Assembly (NCBI GenBank): GCA_020832135.1
Contig: JAFIFG010000111.1
Location: 62,001 to 126,000, forward strand
DNA from: Clostridiaceae bacterium
GTDB taxonomy: Bacteria > Bacillota > Clostridia > Peptostreptococcales > Natronincolaceae
Direction of reading: 5' to 3'
DNA length: 64,000 bases
Numbering within the stretch: position 1 is the stretch's first letter; each line of letters starts with the position of its first letter. Below the pieces are notes generated by a model. That model made no database searches. It was not told the DNA's origin and saw only the letters and a list, made by a program, of their open reading frames with translations. A program made the translations under genes and the position numbers. Below are positions 4,975 through 52,012 of the stretch, in pieces.

Positions 4975-5155
4975 AATTTAACCCGCCATGCCGTTATCCG
5001 ATTGTTTTGAAACCTGCTAAGCAGGTGGGTGTCTTGTTATTTACTTCATAAGTCCTTAATCTAACAAGGCATTTATTACATAAATAAACTTCAAACTCCC
5101 AATGTAATTGTGTTGGCTCAAAACGTTTCGAATTGACGAACACAGCAGGTGATTA
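4975..5155 (-). ncRNA. ssrS: 6S RNA, sigma-A RNA polymerase regulator
   Basis: The roughly 180-base non-coding stretch has terminal sequences that pair over about 11 positions: CCUGCUGUGUU at the 5' end (about 5149) with the segment ending GGCAUGGCGGG at the 3' end (about 4982), several pairs being G-U. The AU-rich centre would form the open bubble that mimics a melted promoter. Its place between aspS and tcdA is the same as Bacillus subtilis bsrA (6S-1). A promoter (5161-5189) and a terminator (4925-4953) bracket it. Exact ends are estimates. 6S RNA binds housekeeping RNA polymerase and dampens transcription in slow growth. Confidence 0.85.
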
Positions 5156-10463: not shown

Positions 10464-11084
10464 TTATTTAATATAGGGGTTGGTGGTCTTTTCTATACCT
10501 ATTTTACTAGCGGGGCCATGTCCAGGAAATACAGTAGTATCATCACGTAATCCCATTAGTTTTTCCTTTATAGATTGAATGATTTGTTGGTAATCACCGC
10601 CGTCCAGGTCAGTTCTACCTATAGAATTAGCAAACAAAGTATCTCCTGTAAACAACATATTTTCTACATGAATACAAATTCCACCCTGACTATGGCCGGG
10701 AGTGTGAATAATCTTAAGTTCAATATCCCCTAGTTGTAGTACATCTCCATCTTCTAAAAAATGCTCTGTTGTCATCTCTATAACTGGACCACCCATTCGG
10801 GAGGAAAAGTTTTTGTCTTTATCTTCTAATAAATATAAGTCATTTTTATGGATATATATAAGAGCATCTGTTTCATCCTTTAATTCCTGTAATCCTCCAA
10901 TATGATCTCCATGTCCATGAGTTAATAGGATATACTTTAACTGCATTTCATTGTTTCTCAATACCTTCAGTATTTCGCCGGCATCTCCACCAGGATCAAT
11001 TACCATTGCTTCATTTGTATTTTCATCACCTATTATATAGCAATTGGCTCCATACACTCCTACCGCCATTCTTTCTAAAAACAT
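10464..11084 (-). CDS. MBL-fold metallo-hydrolase (glyoxalase II-like)
   Basis: The 206-residue protein carries the metallo-beta-lactamase signature THGHGDHIGG (residues about 55-64), plus HTPGHSQGG, FTGDTLF and FPGHGP, which complete a two-metal site. It lacks the C-terminal substrate domain of true glyoxalase II and resembles the YqgX/YcbL group. In this operon position (dtd, relA upstream) such genes are commonly found in Clostridia. Substrate is unknown; a thioester or persulfide are possible. Confidence 0.85.
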   Translation of the reverse strand: MFLERMAVGVYGANCYIIGDENTNEAMVIDPGGDAGEILKVLRNNEMQLKYILLTHGHGDHIGGLQELKDETDALIYIHKNDLYLLEDKDKNFSSRMGGPVIEMTTEHFLEDGDVLQLGDIELKIIHTPGHSQGGICIHVENMLFTGDTLFANSIGRTDLDGGDYQQIIQSIKEKLMGLRDDTTVFPGHGPASKIGIEKTTNPYIK

Positions 11085-32382: not shown

Positions 32383-32479
32383 TGGCGGGAGTACGTGGGA
32401 ATCGAACCCACCCAAGAGGCTACTAACCCCTCGAACTGGTTTTGAAGACCAGAGGACACACCAGCACCCATCTACTCCC
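32383..32479 (-). tRNA. selC: tRNA-Sec (anticodon TCA)
   Basis: The 97-base gene starts GGGAGTAGATGGG and ends CTCCCG plus an encoded CCA. The anticodon loop CTTCAAA within CTGGT...ACCAG gives TCA, which reads UGA. A long extra arm and an extended acceptor/T-arm stack (GTGGGTTCGATTCCCAC) are typical of Sec tRNA. It has its own consensus-like promoter (32508-32536) and terminator. It proves the cell decodes UGA as selenocysteine. Confidence 0.97.
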
Positions 32480-33402: not shown

Positions 33403-35298
33403 TTAAAATAAAACCCGCTTATCCTCCGTCCTCTTTGTAACCCTATTATTATCGAAATACTCCAAAATTGCTACTGCATACTTTCTACTTGTATTCAATA
33501 GATCTCTAAATTCTCCTAATGTAATAGTACCATTTTCCTTTAGAAAGTCTAATAGTCTATCCTTTATTTCTAAATAAGCATCTTTATAAAGAATAATATC
33601 AGGATTGATTTTTATCAGAGTTTTACCTAGTATAGCCTCTAGGACCGCTTGTACTTCCTTTTCATTATAAGGAATATCCTTTAAAACATCCTCTGTCTTA
33701 GGCGGTGCAAAGCCATAGTCTAAGTATTTTTTCTCTATGAGATTTTTAATTTCATCTTGAAGGGTATTAAATCTAATTTCAAAATCATATAATGCAACAT
33801 ATTTTTCTAGTATTTTAATCATTTTTTCTTCTTCCAGAAACTCCAGTATAATATCCCCTAACTTGCCGCTATTATGAGGTAATAATCTGCTTTTAAATTC
33901 TTCTTTTGATATACCTACTTTCAAAGAATTTTTTTCATGATATTTTTTTAATATCTCAATCCCTTTATCTTTGATGCTTTCATAATAGTTTCTATGTATT
34001 ATTGTAGAATCATTGAGCATTAATATCTTTTGTTTTTCATCTAATTGTTTTATTAAAACTCTAATGTTCTCAATATGTTCTCCAGATATCTTAGCTAAGA
34101 AGGAAATATTAGGGAATTCGCTACTGTATTTGTCAATGTGCTTTTCTAGTAAATCCTGTGGATTTCCCTTCTCCTTTGTCAGCAACTCCTCTATAGTTGT
34201 TTTATCAAATCTTTTATGTTTCTCAGGGTTGCCATCAATTACCACTGCCCCACCAATAGTTTCCATAGGAGAATAGGATCTCACTACGATTCTATCTCCT
34301 TTTTTTACTGCAATAGATTCTTCTAGCCTTAATTGTACTAATGCTAAGTCACCGGCCTGTAGTTTATCTTTTTCTAATATCACAACTCTAGCGAATACTT
34401 CAGTTGAACCATGATATAGTCGGACTCTGGTTCTATTTTCTATTTCTTTTGCCATATCACCTAATACTTTTAACTTTGCGTCAATCATCATAGTAGTTTC
34501 CATGGCTCCTGTTGCAGTTAATACATAACCTCTTTCAATATCCTCTTTTTTAGTATTCGCTAAATTGATAGCCACCCTTTGCCCTGCAAAAGCTCTATCA
34601 ACAGACTTTCCGTGAACCTGTATATTTCTAATTCTTACTTTTATTTTTTCAGGCAAAATTTCCAGTGTATCTTCTATAGCTATTTGTCCCTCCATCAAAG
34701 TTCCTGTAACAACAGTACCAAACCCTGTTACCGTAAACACTCTATCAATAGGCATTCTAGCAGGGGAACTCACATCTCTACTTTCTGTTTCATCTGTCAA
34801 CCTGTCTATAGTTTTAATTAAGTCGTCTATACCAATCCCTTCAACTGAATCCACAGTAAGCAATTCCGCATTTTCAAAAAAGGTACCTTTCACTTTTTCT
34901 CTTATATCCTCTTTTATTAATTCTAACCATTCTCGGTCTACTAAATTGGATTTTGTGATAACAATAACACCTTTTTCTATTTTAAGTAAAGATAGTATAT
35001 CTAAGTGTTCTTTAGTTTGTGGCATAACACCTTCATCAGCAGCAATCACCAACATAACAATGTCCATCCCACCAGCACCTGCCAACATATGTCTAATAAA
35101 TTTTTCGTGTCCTGGCACATCTATAATGCCTGCCCTTCTACCACTTGGTAAATCGAAATACGTGAAACCTAATTCTATGGAGATACCCCTTTTCTTTTCT
35201 TCTTTCAATCTATCAGTTTCTCTTCCTGTTAATGCCTTTATTAGGGTAGTTTTACCATGATCAATATGTCCTGCTGTTCCTATAACTATGTTTTTCAA
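33403..35298 (-). CDS. selB: selenocysteine-specific translation elongation factor SelB
   Basis: SelB is a GTPase that carries Sec-tRNA to UGA codons marked by a SECIS hairpin. The 631-residue protein has the G motifs GTAGHIDHGKTTL (about residues 5-17), DVPGHEKF and TKSN, then EF-Tu-like domains. The C-terminal winged helices that bind SECIS RNA end with ILEYFDNNRVTKR. Start: TTG 35298 lies seven bases after GGGG and yields MKNIVIGTAGHIDHG; a GTG three codons upstream overlaps that site. It follows selA by 19 bases. Confidence 0.97.
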   Translation of the reverse strand: MKNIVIGTAGHIDHGKTTLIKALTGRETDRLKEEKKRGISIELGFTYFDLPSGRRAGIIDVPGHEKFIRHMLAGAGGMDIVMLVIAADEGVMPQTKEHLDILSLLKIEKGVIVITKSNLVDREWLELIKEDIREKVKGTFFENAELLTVDSVEGIGIDDLIKTIDRLTDETESRDVSSPARMPIDRVFTVTGFGTVVTGTLMEGQIAIEDTLEILPEKIKVRIRNIQVHGKSVDRAFAGQRVAINLANTKKEDIERGYVLTATGAMETTMMIDAKLKVLGDMAKEIENRTRVRLYHGSTEVFARVVILEKDKLQAGDLALVQLRLEESIAVKKGDRIVVRSYSPMETIGGAVVIDGNPEKHKRFDKTTIEELLTKEKGNPQDLLEKHIDKYSSEFPNISFLAKISGEHIENIRVLIKQLDEKQKILMLNDSTIIHRNYYESIKDKGIEILKKYHEKNSLKVGISKEEFKSRLLPHNSGKLGDIILEFLEEEKMIKILEKYVALYDFEIRFNTLQDEIKNLIEKKYLDYGFAPPKTEDVLKDIPYNEKEVQAVLEAILGKTLIKINPDIILYKDAYLEIKDRLLDFLKENGTITLGEFRDLLNTSRKYAVAILEYFDNNRVTKRTEDKRVLF

Positions 35299-35317
35299 TA
35301 TAAGCACCCCTTTATAC

Positions 35318-36718
35318 TCAACTAATGTCTGTTAAAGCCTCTTTTATCTCATTAAACTGCTGATTTTTTATCGTTCTTAAATCCAATATTAGTTGTTCAT
35401 CTTGGATTCTTGCTATTATTGGTACTCTGTTATACCTTAACTTTTGTTCTAATTTTGCTGCCGACATACATTTAGCTTGTATTGCTATAACCTTTGTAGG
35501 TAATTTTTCTAAAGGTAAAGACCCGCCTCCTACCTGTGAAAAATCATCTTTAATTTTACAATTTATATCTATATTAGCATCTAGTAGTAAATTATAAAGT
35601 TCCTTCGCTCTTTCTTCAATAGATTCAAGTGTTTCTGTTAGCATCCTTAAGGTTGGTATCTTGTTTATCATTTCATCTTCATCTAAGTATAACTTTAAGG
35701 TAGCTTCTAAGGCTGCCATAGTTAGTTTGTCTATTCTAAAGGCTCTCGTAAGAGGATTTTTCTTCATTTTGTCAATCCACTCTTTATTTCCAACAATTAT
35801 TCCAGCTTGCGGTCCTCCTAAGAGCTTGTCTCCACTGAAGGTAACAATATCTGTTCCTAATGCAACACTTTCTTGTACCGTAGGCTCATGGATCAATCCA
35901 TATTTTTTAAAATCTATTAAAACACCACTTCCTAAATCTTCAATAACAGGTATATTATTCCTTTTCCCAACATTGATCAAATCTTTTAGATCCACTTCTT
36001 CTGTAAAGCCTAAAATTTTATAATTACTTGTATGTACTTTGAGTAGTGCAGCTGTATTCTCCCCTATGGCTTCTTCATAGTCCCACAAATGAGTCTTATT
36101 AGTGGTCCCTACATCCACTAATTTTGCACCACTTTGTTCCATAACATCTGGCACTCTAAAAGAACCACCGATTTCCACCAACTGGCCTCTAGAAACGATT
36201 ATTTCCTTATCCTTAGCAACAGTGCTCAATACTAGCATTACAGCAGCAGCATTGTTATTGACAACCAAGGCATCCTCTGCACCTGTTAAAAATTTTATAA
36301 TGTCTACTACATGGCTATATCTACTTCCCCTTTTTCCTGTATGAATATTTAATTCTAAATTAGAATATCCAGAAGCTACTGACCAAATTTCTTCCTTTAT
36401 TGAATCACTTAAAAGTGCTCTCCCTAAATTCGTATGTAAAACAACACCAGTGGCATTAATAACTTCTTTTAAATTCATTTCTAGGAAACTTTTGCTTTTT
36501 TTAATAATTTCTTGTATTAACAACTCATGTTCTATTACATAAGACTCTACCTGTTTTTCTTTCATTGTTAAAATTTTAGTTCTATGATTTTGAATACAGT
36601 GCCTTATATTTTCTATAACAACTTTTCGCGGTACTTCTTTCATTAAATTTTTAATTAGACTATTGTTTAAAAATTCATCTACTGATGGCAATGAGCTTAA
36701 TATCATTTTTTTATTCAT
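35318..36718 (-). CDS. selA: L-seryl-tRNA(Sec) selenium transferase
   Basis: This PLP enzyme converts Ser-tRNA-Sec to Sec-tRNA-Sec with selenophosphate. The 466-residue protein has the N-terminal tRNA-binding part, INATGVVLHTNLGRALLS (about residues 87-104) and the PLP-lysine region SGDKLLGGPQAGIIVG (about 293-308). It heads selA-selB. A promoter TTGGAG-N17-TATAAT is at 36772-36800. Confidence 0.97.
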   Translation of the reverse strand: MNKKMILSSLPSVDEFLNNSLIKNLMKEVPRKVVIENIRHCIQNHRTKILTMKEKQVESYVIEHELLIQEIIKKSKSFLEMNLKEVINATGVVLHTNLGRALLSDSIKEEIWSVASGYSNLELNIHTGKRGSRYSHVVDIIKFLTGAEDALVVNNNAAAVMLVLSTVAKDKEIIVSRGQLVEIGGSFRVPDVMEQSGAKLVDVGTTNKTHLWDYEEAIGENTAALLKVHTSNYKILGFTEEVDLKDLINVGKRNNIPVIEDLGSGVLIDFKKYGLIHEPTVQESVALGTDIVTFSGDKLLGGPQAGIIVGNKEWIDKMKKNPLTRAFRIDKLTMAALEATLKLYLDEDEMINKIPTLRMLTETLESIEERAKELYNLLLDANIDINCKIKDDFSQVGGGSLPLEKLPTKVIAIQAKCMSAAKLEQKLRYNRVPIIARIQDEQLILDLRTIKNQQFNEIKEALTDIS

Positions 36719-36800: not shown

Positions 36801-36952
36801 CATTGTTAAATAATGCACAATATTTTAAATTGTTTAAAAATTTATTCCATTTTCCCATAAGTTATGTTACAATTAATTTATATTGAGATTTAATTAAAAA
36901 CTTCATACTGGTGGATGAAGATAATAGGATGTATTTAGACTGTTATCGGACC

Positions 36953-37032
36953 AGCCTCTCGAGAGACTCAAATGAGCGCCGAAGGGGAAAGCCAATCTTA
37001 TTGGTGAAACTCTCAGGTAAAAGGATAGAGGA
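36953..37032 (+). promoter_or_regulatory. glycine riboswitch (single aptamer)
   Basis: The stretch contains the conserved glycine-aptamer blocks: CTCTCGAGAGACTC, GCGCCGAAGGGG and CTCTCAGGTAAAAGGATAGAGG. P1 is closed by CCTCT (36955-36959) and AGAGG (37027-37031). A second full aptamer was not seen, though the 50 bases upstream (with hairpin CTTCAT/ATGAAG at 36901-36920) may supply supporting structure. The downstream terminator at 37121-37148 can compete with P1. The controlled gene is the symporter at 37359. Confidence 0.93.
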
Positions 37033-37120
37033 TTTTATATAAAGAAAATATTCATACCTATATTATTTTTTTCTTTTGTATAGATAGTATATTTTCTTTG
37101 AAATAAAATCTTGTGTAGTT

Positions 37121-38737: not shown

Positions 38738-38779
38738 CACATAAAATAAGACGGGTTCATTCCCGTCTTATTTTATGTG
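38738..38779. terminator. bidirectional terminator between symporter and selD
   Basis: Two 18-base perfectly complementary arms (38738-38755 and 38762-38779) contain CACATAAAATAAGACGGG and its complement around a six-base loop. The last codons and stop of selD form one arm. Confidence 0.9.
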
Positions 38780-39808
38780 TATAGCATAATTATCTTTTTT
38801 AATTACTCTACCTACTACAGCATAGTCATTTTGTCCCTTTACTTGTAACCTTTCTAATGCACTTTCAATATCATCTGGGTCAATGGCCAACAGAAGACCT
38901 CCCGAGGTTTGTGGATCATATAATGTATCTTCTAAAGCAACTTTAATTGGAGTGATGATTTTAACTCTATCTTCAATATACTTCTTATTTGCGTACATAC
39001 CTGCAGGAATAATACCCATCTCAGCAAATTCTAATGCCCCCTTGATTAAAGGTACTTTATCACTAAATATTTCTAAAGTAATATTACTAGCTTTTGCCAT
39101 TTCATAACTGTGGCCTAAAAATCCAAATCCTGTAATGTCAGTGCATGCAGAAATCCTTAAATCCTCTACAGCTTCAAAGGCATATTTATTTAAAGTTACC
39201 ATGGTTTTAATTGCTGCATTATATTGTTCCTCAGATGTTAAATCAGCTTTAATCGCTGTATTTAATATTCCAGTCCCTAAAGGTTTTGTTAAAAGTAAAT
39301 AATCCCCTTCTTTGGCCCCACTATTAGCTAAGACTTTCTGAGGATGGATAATACCCGTGACGGATAATCCATATTTAGGTTCATTGTCCTCTACGGTATG
39401 TCCTCCTACTAATAATGCACCTGCCTCAATAACTTTATCTGCACCACCTTTTAATATTTCTTTCAACACATCAATTTCTAGGCAATTGGGGAAACACACA
39501 ATATTCATAGCAGTTAAAGGTTTTCCTCCCATGGCATAGACATCACTTAGAGAATTAGCAGCAGCTATTTGACCATAGATATAAGGGTCATCAACCACTG
39601 GTGTAAAAAAATCTAAGGTTTGTATTAAAGCAGTTTTATCATTTAATTTATATACAGCAGCATCATCAGCAGTGTCTAAAGAAACTAACAAATTGTCATT
39701 TTCTACTTTCGGCAAATGGCACAGTACCTGTGCCAGGACATCAGGTCCTATTTTAGCCGCTCAGCCACCACTTTGTGTCAGTTCAGTAAGTCTTTTGAAA
39801 GTTGTCAA
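38768..39808 (-). CDS. selD: selenide, water dikinase SelD, itself a selenoprotein (TGA = Sec16)
   Basis: SelD makes selenophosphate, the selenium donor for SelA. The coding region is 346 residues and runs through an in-frame TGA at 39761-39763. The N-terminus reads [15 protein letters not shown]-Sec-AAKIGP, placing Sec at the usual catalytic Cys/Sec position three residues before the essential Lys. Start is TTG 39808, seven bases after AGGAGG. A conventional call would begin at 39715 and lose the active site. Downstream of the TGA, GGCACAG-GTA-CTGTGCC (39734-39718) forms a perfect seven-pair hairpin with a G-first loop, suitable as a bacterial SECIS. It follows the comEA-like gene by 35 bases. 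Confidence 0.95.
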
Positions 39809-39843
39809 ATTCAACTCCTCCTATCTTTATTCGAGCCTCTTAT

Positions 39844-47238: not shown

Positions 47239-47440
47239 AAAAAAACTTTCATGTCTATTTAGGGACGGATTAAATTCCGCGGTACCACCCTAATTGACAG
47301 AAAGTCCTCTTCAATGGTTTATAAAGGGAACCACCCTAATAGCTTTAACTTTTAAGTAAGGCAAGTTCAACAATATACTTTATTGATTTTCACCAACCAT
47401 CAACTCTCTAAAAAAGTATATATACGTTTACTACTCCTTA
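47239..47440 (-). promoter_or_regulatory. T-box riboswitch for leuS
   Basis: The leader carries the T-box sequence AGGGTGGTACCGCGG (47291-47277). A stem I region has AGAGAGTTGATGG and GGTGAAAATCAAT, and GAACTTGCC holds a CTT specifier at 47365-47363, matching leucine. The terminator uses CTTTCTGTCAATTAGGG and CCCTAAATAGACATGAAAG followed by seven T residues. Uncharged tRNA-Leu should stabilise the antiterminator and turn leuS on. A second ATTAGGGTGGT copy lies upstream at 47340-47330. Confidence 0.93.
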
Positions 47441-47515
47441 TACTATTTAACATATAATTAAATTTTATTCTATTCTTTTAATAATTAAAAAATATTATGT
47501 ATATATAATAGTAAA

Positions 47516-50661: not shown

Positions 50662-51267
50662 TTATATGTACAAATAATTTTTTTGAATATATCTTTCTAC
50701 ATCCTCTGTTACCATATATTTTATAGATCTTTCTTCTTTTATCCTATTTCTCAAGTCACTAGAAGAAATTTCTAAATTTGGTATACTCATCTTAATAACT
50801 TCAGCAGAATAAGTTTCTTTTAAATAATTTATTTTATCATTTAACTCTTCATTGTCATATCCAGCCCTAGTGGTGACTACAAATTTAATTAGATGAAATA
50901 ACTCTATGTAATTCTTCCACGTTTCAATTTCTACAAATGCATCAGAGCCAATAATGAAGTGAAATTCAGTAGGTTCTTTATGCTGTTTAAGCATATACTT
51001 TATTGTATCAATAGTATAGGAATCTCCACTTCTATTTATTTCTATATCAGATAAATAGAATTTTTCGTTACTATTTATCGCCATGGATGTCATCACTAAT
51101 CTATGATATCCATCAGTAATAAGTCGATGATATTTATGGGGTGGAGTCCCTGTAGGGACAAAAATAATTTTATCCAATTGAACTTCCCTTAATGCTGTTT
51201 CAGCAATAAATAGATGGCCTAAATGTATAGGGTCAAAGGTACCACCCATTATTCCATATTTTTTCAT
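50662..51267 (-). CDS. nadD: nicotinate-nucleotide adenylyltransferase
   Basis: NadD makes deamido-NAD from nicotinate mononucleotide and ATP. The 201-residue protein has GGTFDPIHLGHLFIAE with the GxFxPxHxGH motif (residues about 8-23), FVPTGTPPHK and the ISSSDLRNRI phosphate motif near the C-terminus. It starts just upstream of the divergent selenoprotein gene at 51358, leaving about 90 bases between them. Confidence 0.96.
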   Translation of the reverse strand: MKKYGIMGGTFDPIHLGHLFIAETALREVQLDKIIFVPTGTPPHKYHRLITDGYHRLVMTSMAINSNEKFYLSDIEINRSGDSYTIDTIKYMLKQHKEPTEFHFIIGSDAFVEIETWKNYIELFHLIKFVVTTRAGYDNEELNDKINYLKETYSAEVIKMSIPNLEISSSDLRNRIKEERSIKYMVTEDVERYIQKNYLYI

Positions 51268-51328
51268 TATCTACACCTCTTTTTAGAGCAGCATGTTTAA
51301 TTATGCTATTTTTAATATTAAAATTTTA

Positions 51329-51337
51329 TGCTATAGT
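51329..51337 (+). promoter_or_regulatory. extended -10 promoter of the MerT-like selenoprotein gene
   Basis: TGC-TATAGT is an extended -10 box with its TATAGT at 51332-51337, about 20 bases before the start codon. A clear -35 box was not seen. AGGAGG lies eight bases before ATG 51358. Confidence 0.5.
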
Positions 51338-51357
51338 ATTGATAGGAGGTTATAATT

Positions 51358-51660
51358 ATGAAAGAAAAAATGTTAAGTATATTTTCAATTTTTCCAGCTC
51401 TATTAGCTACACTTTGCTGAGGTGGAGGTCTATTGTTGGCTACCCTAGGTCTAGGGACAGCAGGATTTGCTTTTTTATCAAACATAGCCCCCTACAGAAA
51501 CGTATTTTTATTTCTATCCTTCTTAACTCTTTTTCTATCATACAATATGGTAGAGAAAAAGAATAGTAAAAAATCTAACAAAATAATATTTAGTATATCT
51601 GCTACGTTAGTAGTTATAATACTTTATGCACCCTTTTTATTAAGACTCATTACAAGATAG
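51358..51660 (+). CDS. MerT-like small membrane selenoprotein (TGA = Sec21)
   Basis: Read through TGA at 51418-51420, the gene encodes 100 residues starting MKEKMLSIFSIFPALLATLC followed by Sec and GGGLLLATLGLGTAGFAFLS, then NIAPYRNVFLFLSFLTL. Three membrane helices are predicted. MerT proteins carry a Cys-Cys pair in helix 1, followed by LGLG and later PYR; here the second Cys position is the TGA. AGGAGG lies eight bases before the ATG. A SECIS-like hairpin follows at 51434-51462: upper stem CCCTA/TAGGG, loop GGTC, lower stem TGTTG/CAGCA. No merP, merA or merR is adjacent, so the metal or metalloid is unknown. A nonsense-mutated gene is the alternative, but codons on both sides are intact. 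Confidence 0.85.
51434..51462 (+). promoter_or_regulatory. bacterial SECIS-like hairpin of the MerT-like gene
   Basis: CCCTA (51443-51447) pairs with TAGGG (51452-51456) around the loop GGTC. TGTTG (51434-51438) pairs with CAGCA (51458-51462), leaving an asymmetric internal loop. The apical loop starts 27 bases after the TGA, within the known range for bacterial SECIS, and begins with GG. Confidence 0.7.
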
Positions 51661-51663
51661 TTT

Positions 51664-51695
51664 CAAGGCACCTGTAAAGCTCTATAGGTGCCTTG
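51664..51695. terminator. terminator after the MerT-like gene
   Basis: CAAGGCACCT (51664-51673) and AGGTGCCTTG (51686-51695) pair perfectly three bases after the stop. The trailing plus-strand sequence ATCTTATGTTTC is only moderately T-rich. It can also serve yhbY on the other strand. Confidence 0.75.
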
Positions 51696-51718
51696 ATCTT
51701 ATGTTTCACATATTTTTA

Positions 51719-52012
51719 TTATTTGGGTAGTTCTATCTGCGGCTTGTTTTTAGATTTTCTATACAACACAAATTTGTTTCCAAGAGCTTGAACAAATTCA
51801 GCCTTTAAAGCTTCTGCTACTTCATTAGCAGTATCTTTTGTATCTAATAAACTATTATCTAAGATATTAACCTTTACTATTTCTCTTGCTTCTAAAGCAT
51901 CATTCATTTGTGCTAAAAAACTTTCGGTAACACCAGCTTTACCTATTTGAGCAATAGGTTTTACTCCATTCGCTATGCTTTTAAGATGACTTCTTTCTTT
52001 CCCTGTTAGCAT
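51719..52012 (-). CDS. yhbY: YhbY-type ribosome-assembly RNA-binding protein
   Basis: The 97-residue CRM-domain protein begins MLTGKERSHLKSIANGVKPI and has the GKAGVTESFLAQMNDALEAREIVKVNIL region, cited here as GKAGVTESF and KVNIL. Start: the frame is open 21 codons upstream into obg, but GAGGAG lies about eight bases before ATG 52012, which gives the standard length. It follows obg with a gap of 46 bases. Confidence 0.93.
   Translation of the reverse strand: MLTGKERSHLKSIANGVKPIAQIGKAGVTESFLAQMNDALEAREIVKVNILDNSLLDTKDTANEVAEALKAEFVQALGNKFVLYRKSKNKPQIELPK

Follow-up and report, generated by a model that had tools for sequence, protein, structure and literature searches.

The analysed window, a stretch of 64,000 nucleotides from a Clostridiaceae bacterium, carries between nadD and yhbY a short MerT-like gene that, judged by comparison with its homologues, is almost certainly a genuine selenoprotein gene. 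The best explanation, which we regard as likely, is that it encodes a membrane selenoprotein of about 11 kDa from the MerT superfamily, whose Cys20-Sec21 pair would carry a soft metal, most likely mercury. The predicted reading frame, selenocysteine (Sec) codon and RNA hairpin and the presence of the Sec machinery are supported by comparison. Among related anaerobic Bacillota, MerT often takes this selenium form, mostly in genomes without mercuric reductase (MerA) above the cut-off, and a few relatives have mercury-type operons with Sec-type TGA codons in merT and merP and, once, in merB. Two questions are raised by this: why a selenolate replaces one thiol of a metal-transfer pair, and what role a mercury-type carrier plays in a cell without mercuric reductase.

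Reading frame, locus and conservation of the TGA codon

An earlier, sequence-only reading of the window had described a gene of 100 codons interrupted only by one TGA, with a good ribosome-binding site and a terminator. The coordinates of the gene and its TGA were confirmed by direct reading, as was the ribosome-binding site (Table 1). The terminator also held: a scan of 51200-51800 observed one terminator-like hairpin, where shuffled sequences gave 0.1 on average, and the same scan found no promoter-like site 5' of the gene on its own strand. When the TGA is read through as Sec, Sec21 directly follows Cys20. This agrees with the proposal that Sec occupies the second residue of the helix-1 pair, where MerT has Cys, as some of the homologues do.

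Table 1. Features of the window discussed in the text (positions count from the first nucleotide of the window)
Feature	Position	Strand	Details and basis
MerT-like selenoprotein gene	51358..51660	+	ATG 51358, stop TAG 51658-51660; 100 residues, predicted Sec at 21
Shine-Dalgarno sequence AGGAGG	51344..51349	+	8 nt 5' of the ATG; direct sequence reading
TGA codon, predicted Sec, second residue of the helix-1 Cys-Sec pair	51418..51420	+	comparison of homologues
SECIS-type hairpin CCCTA-GGTC-TAGGG, inside the coding sequence	51443..51456	+	comparison with homologues
Terminator-like hairpin	51663..51696	+	scan against shuffled sequences
tRNA-Sec, anticodon TCA	32383..32479	-	RNA search
selB	33403..35307	-	TIGR00475, 385.3 bits
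selA	35318..36718	-	TIGR00474, 635.4 bits
selD	38768..39820	-	putative start; in-frame TGA 39761-39763 (GGUAAK); TIGR00476, 367.5 bits (part after the TGA)
6S RNA	4976..5154	-	
Glycine riboswitch	36948..37038	+	
T-box leader	47258..47449	-	upstream of leuS (leuS identified by eye)

The gene and yhbY are convergent, the gene and nadD divergent, and no mer genes were found adjoining it, so that its lone position between these two flanks stands as first described. In the yhbY regions of ten related genomes, nadD adjoins yhbY with a gap of about 80-270 bases in six and about 1.4 kb in one, and lies outside the stretch examined in the other three. Because nadD directly adjoins yhbY in most of the relatives compared, the MerT-like gene was probably inserted in the window's own lineage.

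Homologues were searched for in 98 genomes, including the window's own. There were 33 genomes with a match at E <= 0.01, and strong homologues (E <= 2.7e-8) were present in 30 genomes at 33 places, all of which were read; three genomes with weaker matches (G066, G076 and G078, E 0.005-0.009) and a weak second place in G015 were left out. A TGA directly follows Cys at the same codon in 31 of the 33 places, the window included, and Cys replaces it in the other two, one in G004 and one in a second copy in G093. The latter copy (L045:8025-8314, minus strand) has an in-frame TAG elsewhere, and the ORFs around it resemble an integrative element. At class level, 9 of 393 genomes had matches at E <= 1e-5, of which four had been seen already, four were new TGA forms and one was a new Cys form. 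At phylum level there were 27 of 398 genomes at the same threshold, where the retrieved loci, rather than every place, were read.

The part of the gene downstream of the TGA is under purifying selection: 3' of the hairpin, dN was lower than dS in 13 of 13 homologue pairs, which overlap and two of which contain few changes. The gene thus has the usual marks of a bacterial selenoprotein at this site, an in-frame TGA within conserved flanks and Cys homologues at the same position. The sequence-only reading had looked for Cys homologues with conserved flanks in its support, and these were found; it had named absence of the site, unrelated stops or an unconserved downstream part as counting against it, and all 33 places carry TGA or Cys, with the flanks and the downstream part conserved.

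The hairpin and the selenocysteine machinery

The hairpin with a GGTC loop that had been pointed out 23 bases past the TGA is present, starting at the 23rd base, and compensatory changes were seen in a sister group of sequences. Folding of the single window sequence was no better than that of shuffled sequences (z -0.56; over 55 nt, z 0.07), so the weight of the hairpin comes from comparison. For this, 35 TGA rows were sorted by eye into 16 in the register of the window, 12 with one base more and 7 that fit either less well; since rows were sorted by fit, the share of paired cells comes partly from selection.

In the 12-row sister group, a 6-bp stem is paired in all cells. One of its pairs is A-U in six rows, G-C in five and G-U in one, and another is G-C in 11 and A-U in one. 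The covariation score of this group, 0.326, was reached by none of 500 shuffles, and versions slid along the alignment scored at most 0.091. Its two pairs with double changes were matched by 18 of 500 shuffles, whereas 491 of 500 had as many pair types. The window's own group gave no covariation, because four of its five pairs (CCCU/AGGG) are invariant and the remaining one does not form in 6 of 15 rows. Sliding this group by two columns gave a higher score (0.206), yet only 40% of the cells were then paired. The Gly codon that forms the hairpin partner is GGG in all 16 window-group rows, compared with 9 of 71 Gly codons elsewhere in these gene parts. When each group was scanned for stems with full pairing across its rows, only the SECIS-type helix was found.

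That tRNA-Sec, SelA, SelB and SelD are all encoded in the window was borne out by RNA and profile searches (Table 1), and the read-through translation of selD suggests that its product, too, is a selenoprotein. A TGA form occurs in 29 of the 98 genomes, and tRNA-Sec scored at least 70 bits in 26 of these; the other three (G036, G063 and G071), in which no tRNA-Sec was above the cut-off, are drafts that are 86, 79 and 63% complete. Two genomes, G004 and G263, each a single contig, were found to have a close Cys form and no TGA form, and their best tRNA-Sec matches (46.4 and 43.9 bits) fall below the cut-off of 47 bits. This cut-off does not separate cleanly: several genomes gave second matches of 47-53 bits that are probably other tRNAs, and it was also passed by 5 of 14 control genomes. 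Two distant Cys forms on long branches (G520 and G806) are from genomes that have tRNA-Sec all the same, which argues against strict tracking.

These results bear on whether a selenoprotein is made at all. If the TGA simply ended translation, had arisen by decay of the gene or coded for Trp, there would be no such product, and the shuffle-level folding of the single hairpin would be in keeping with this. Such a reading is exceedingly improbable given a TGA at one codon in nearly all strong homologues, Cys and not Trp in the other two, dN below dS after the TGA in every pair, a covarying hairpin and the tracking of tRNA-Sec. A chance TGA or a pseudogene was rejected on the conserved codon, the dN and dS values and the covarying hairpin, and a Trp codon because the exceptional homologues carry Cys at the site.

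Protein, relatives and likely function

The similarity to MerT that the sequence-only reading had noticed was confirmed by profile searches with a Cys-form query, at scores under the curated cut-offs. Pfam MerT (PF02411) gave 32.2 bits (E 1.2e-7), just missing its gathering threshold (32.9). In NCBIfam, the models MerT, merT_RC607 and MerT_CopZ_Se gave E 3.8e-9, 2.3e-8 and 9.9e-5. Of five relatives compared with the PF02411 cut-off, three pass (L004, 33.1; L011, as L050, 33.9; L014, 37.8) and two fail (L008, 32.2; L029, 31.5). A PF02411 search of the window's own genome gave no match and was also silent in 14 controls, hence it is uninformative.

In an alignment of 27 rows, in which Sec is written as Cys, the columns of Cys20 and Sec21 are invariant. 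Apart from these two residues the protein has no Cys or Sec, and the second Cys pair of the Tn21/Tn501 type is absent. Its hydropathy is compatible with three membrane helices, which is probably its topology, and the stretch joining the second and third hydrophobic regions is rich in Lys. Two structure models were both poor (pLDDT 65 and 69), the better one having helices at 3-21, 23-30, 33-67 and 72-99. No solved structure matched by sequence, and a fold search with a low-confidence model as query gave a best E of 3.4 and was set aside.

A tree was built from 67 rows, comprising 50 Cys-Sec, 11 CxxU (Cys three residues before Sec) and 6 Cys-Cys forms; L074, L097 and L100 were dropped, and L119 and L122 stand in for L091 and L094. 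It rests on few columns, and 16 of its 63 inner branches are open. The window protein groups with other Cys-Sec forms in a clade of 12 rows (support 100/99) that includes Alkaliphilus and Tissierella records. A Cys-Sec form is the sister of the Cys form of G004 (100/98), as would fit a change from Sec to Cys.

In 31 neighbourhoods, the window's included, which were clustered with only some of the neighbours identified, the genes next to the homologues vary between families. MerA was above the cut-off in only 2 of the 98 genomes (G009 and G037), which do not include the window's. ArsR-like and CopZ-like neighbours are common to two Cys forms (L045 and L066) and one TGA form (L050). The last is from G009, in the window's family, where HMM searches gave the order merB, merT, ArsR, MerA, CopZ-like. 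CopZ-like proteins (NF045877, CU type) flank the mer genes of G009 (L050:5649-6020 and 10651-11022), both with one TGA within the matched frame. This model, CopZ_Nterm_CU, was over its cut-off in 12 of 98 genomes and below it, at 45.7 bits, in the window's.

Among 20 neighbourhoods examined at phylum level, MerR is the next ORF upstream in G470 (170.6 bits, over the cut-off), and ArsR-like ORFs, identified by eye, lie directly upstream in G540 and G683. The G550 locus (L114:1-3335) comprises an ORF judged by eye to be ArsR-like, a ferredoxin-like one, merT, a gene similar to merP (E 1.2e-10 with MerP, CopZ models scoring better) and one similar to merB (E 9.3e-32, under the cut-off). The TGA lies at the metal-binding motif in merT and the merP-like gene (ITUESC), and in the merB-like gene (GCTUPQ) at what we take to be the second active-site Cys of MerB; each of these three genes has a hairpin after its TGA. 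In the CxxU branch, a rhodanese-like ORF was seen by eye just 3' in all eight neighbourhoods read (L112, L113, L116, L120, L122, L124, L125 and L126) of the 11 tree rows. One such ORF was profiled and gave E 9e-18 and 1e-15 with rhodanese-domain models, under their cut-offs.

A plasmid search with the window protein gave no match, and one with L011 gave 19 records, of which two Bacillaceae plasmids, NC_013792.1 (L138:4001-4630) and NZ_CP107028.1 (L139:4001-4627), were examined. Both have the order merR-merF-merT-merP-merA, with merR, merF, merT and merA annotated and merP lying between merT and merA. On both, a TGA is present in merT, where the Cys pair lies, and in merP (GFTUVSC); that of merT is spanned by the RefSeq CDS, and the hairpin after it, of 7-8 bp, includes GGTC near its apex. 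On neither plasmid was a tRNA-Sec found.

In the proposed mechanism, SelB and the in-frame SECIS hairpin would insert Sec at position 21, adjoining Cys20 in helix 1. A selenolate is expected to bind faster and tighter than a thiolate. The thiol-selenol pair would bind a soft metal and could pass it across the membrane by analogy with Cys24-Cys25 of the Tn21/Tn501 MerT; Hg(II) or an organomercurial is the most likely cargo. Since there is neither a second Cys pair nor a MerA above the cut-off, the metal would then go to small thiols, to a protein encoded elsewhere, or outward. According to PMC5715351, the helix-1 pair of MerT is required for Hg(II) transport, and Hg(II) in Tn21/Tn501 is considered to move from MerP to Cys24-Cys25 in helix 1, on to Cys76/Cys82 and finally to MerA. 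The mer contexts of Cys-Sec relatives make a role with mercury or a similar soft metal the best inference, a weaker one for the lone form. Uptake of Hg(II) in the absence of a reductase should harm the cell, which counts against this explanation. So do the lack of mer genes beside the window copy and of a MerA above the cut-off in its genome, the profile scores below the cut-offs, and a protein that offers just one Cys and one Sec.

The same selenoprotein could instead move sulfane sulfur or a selenium species, as the rhodanese-like ORFs of the CxxU branch and the lack of MerA above the cut-off in the window's genome might suggest; a YeeE/YedE thiosulfate-transporter selenoprotein is also listed in a review (PMC13188914). 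We consider this cargo unlikely, as the Cys-Sec members with informative neighbours adjoin MerR, ArsR, MerP, MerB or MerA, and the window gene sits beside nadD and yhbY with no rhodanese. Rated lower still is a membrane redox or sensing protein, in which a selenenylsulfide would serve as a redox switch or the pair as a metal buffer, free of transport. The small size, the single redox-capable pair and the lone gene fit this, and in one review most uncharacterised selenoproteins are considered likely redox proteins (PMC9312934). Against it stand the similarity to a transport protein across most of the length and the fact that no redox family was among the Pfam and NCBIfam matches.

A further reading, put forward tentatively, is that the Cys-Sec MerT, where it stands alone, forms a separate system on the chromosome, free of a mercury operon and with a substrate of its own, which may be another soft metal, an organometal, or a selenium or sulfur species. 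About 30% of the related genomes in the search carry the gene, and the window's genome also encodes a MerB-like lyase, SaoL. SaoL (191.9 bits) is encoded on contig C70 (L137:4291-10142), and by eye its neighbours are like other Sao genes: a permease, a lipoprotein ending in Cys-Cys, substrate-binding proteins, an ABC permease and an ATPase. This region is possibly an organometal system. The MerT-like gene occurs in 3 of the 6 genomes in which SaoL is over its cut-off, against 30 of 98 overall, giving no clear link between the two.

Comparison with known systems

A MerT-type selenoprotein is already known and the window gene adds a further one; the kind is not new because two reviews list such a protein and RefSeq MerT CDSs span such a TGA. 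The former, ABB16073.1, a 'putative mercuric transport protein' of PF02411, reportedly goes back to Zhang and Gladyshev 2007. It is tabulated in PMC9312934 and PMC13188914, the latter giving its motif as C/SxxU. It shares MerT homology and a single Sec with the window protein and differs in its motif, C/SxxU versus TLCU, where Cys is next to Sec. In the homologue of G510 (CITU), Cys precedes Sec by three residues, and a rhodanese-like ORF is its neighbour. Forms like SICU may already be covered by the S of C/SxxU, which would place the Cys-Sec form inside the published family. Selenoproteins named 'putative mercuric transport protein' and 'MerP' are also given from ocean data in PMC2398784. 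The deep-Sep paper makes no mention of MerT, mercury, Alkaliphilus or any name beginning with Tissierell or Peptostreptococc. Our literature search found no study of a lone Cys-Sec MerT, and we do not claim its absence from print.

The RefSeq MerT proteins WP_250634608.1 and WP_250634606.1 of the Bacillaceae plasmids are like the window protein in having about 100 residues, Cys followed by TGA and no other Cys, and their genes have a hairpin with a GGTCT loop; they presumably bear Sec, as their CDS span the TGA. They differ in lying in plasmid merR-merF-merT-merP-merA operons and share only 32% and 31% identity with the window protein. NF045683, a MerT/CopZ fusion-like heavy metal transport selenoprotein, aligns with it through its MerT part (E 9.9e-5); the model is a fusion of 235 positions, whereas the window protein corresponds to the MerT part only and scores 21.9 bits against a cut-off of 375.

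MerT of Tn21/Tn501 (NF010314) shares with the window protein the vicinal pair of helix 1 and resembles it along most of its sequence (E 3.8e-9). It has Cys-Cys in helix 1 and a second pair, Cys76/Cys82 (PMC5715351), whereas the window protein has Cys-Sec and lacks the second pair. This pair is not general to proteins named MerT, as both plasmid mer-operon merT genes lack it. To these systems the present analysis adds the lone Cys-Sec clade and its spread among relatives, the comparison of hairpins, the tracking with tRNA-Sec and the operons with several TGA-bearing mer genes.
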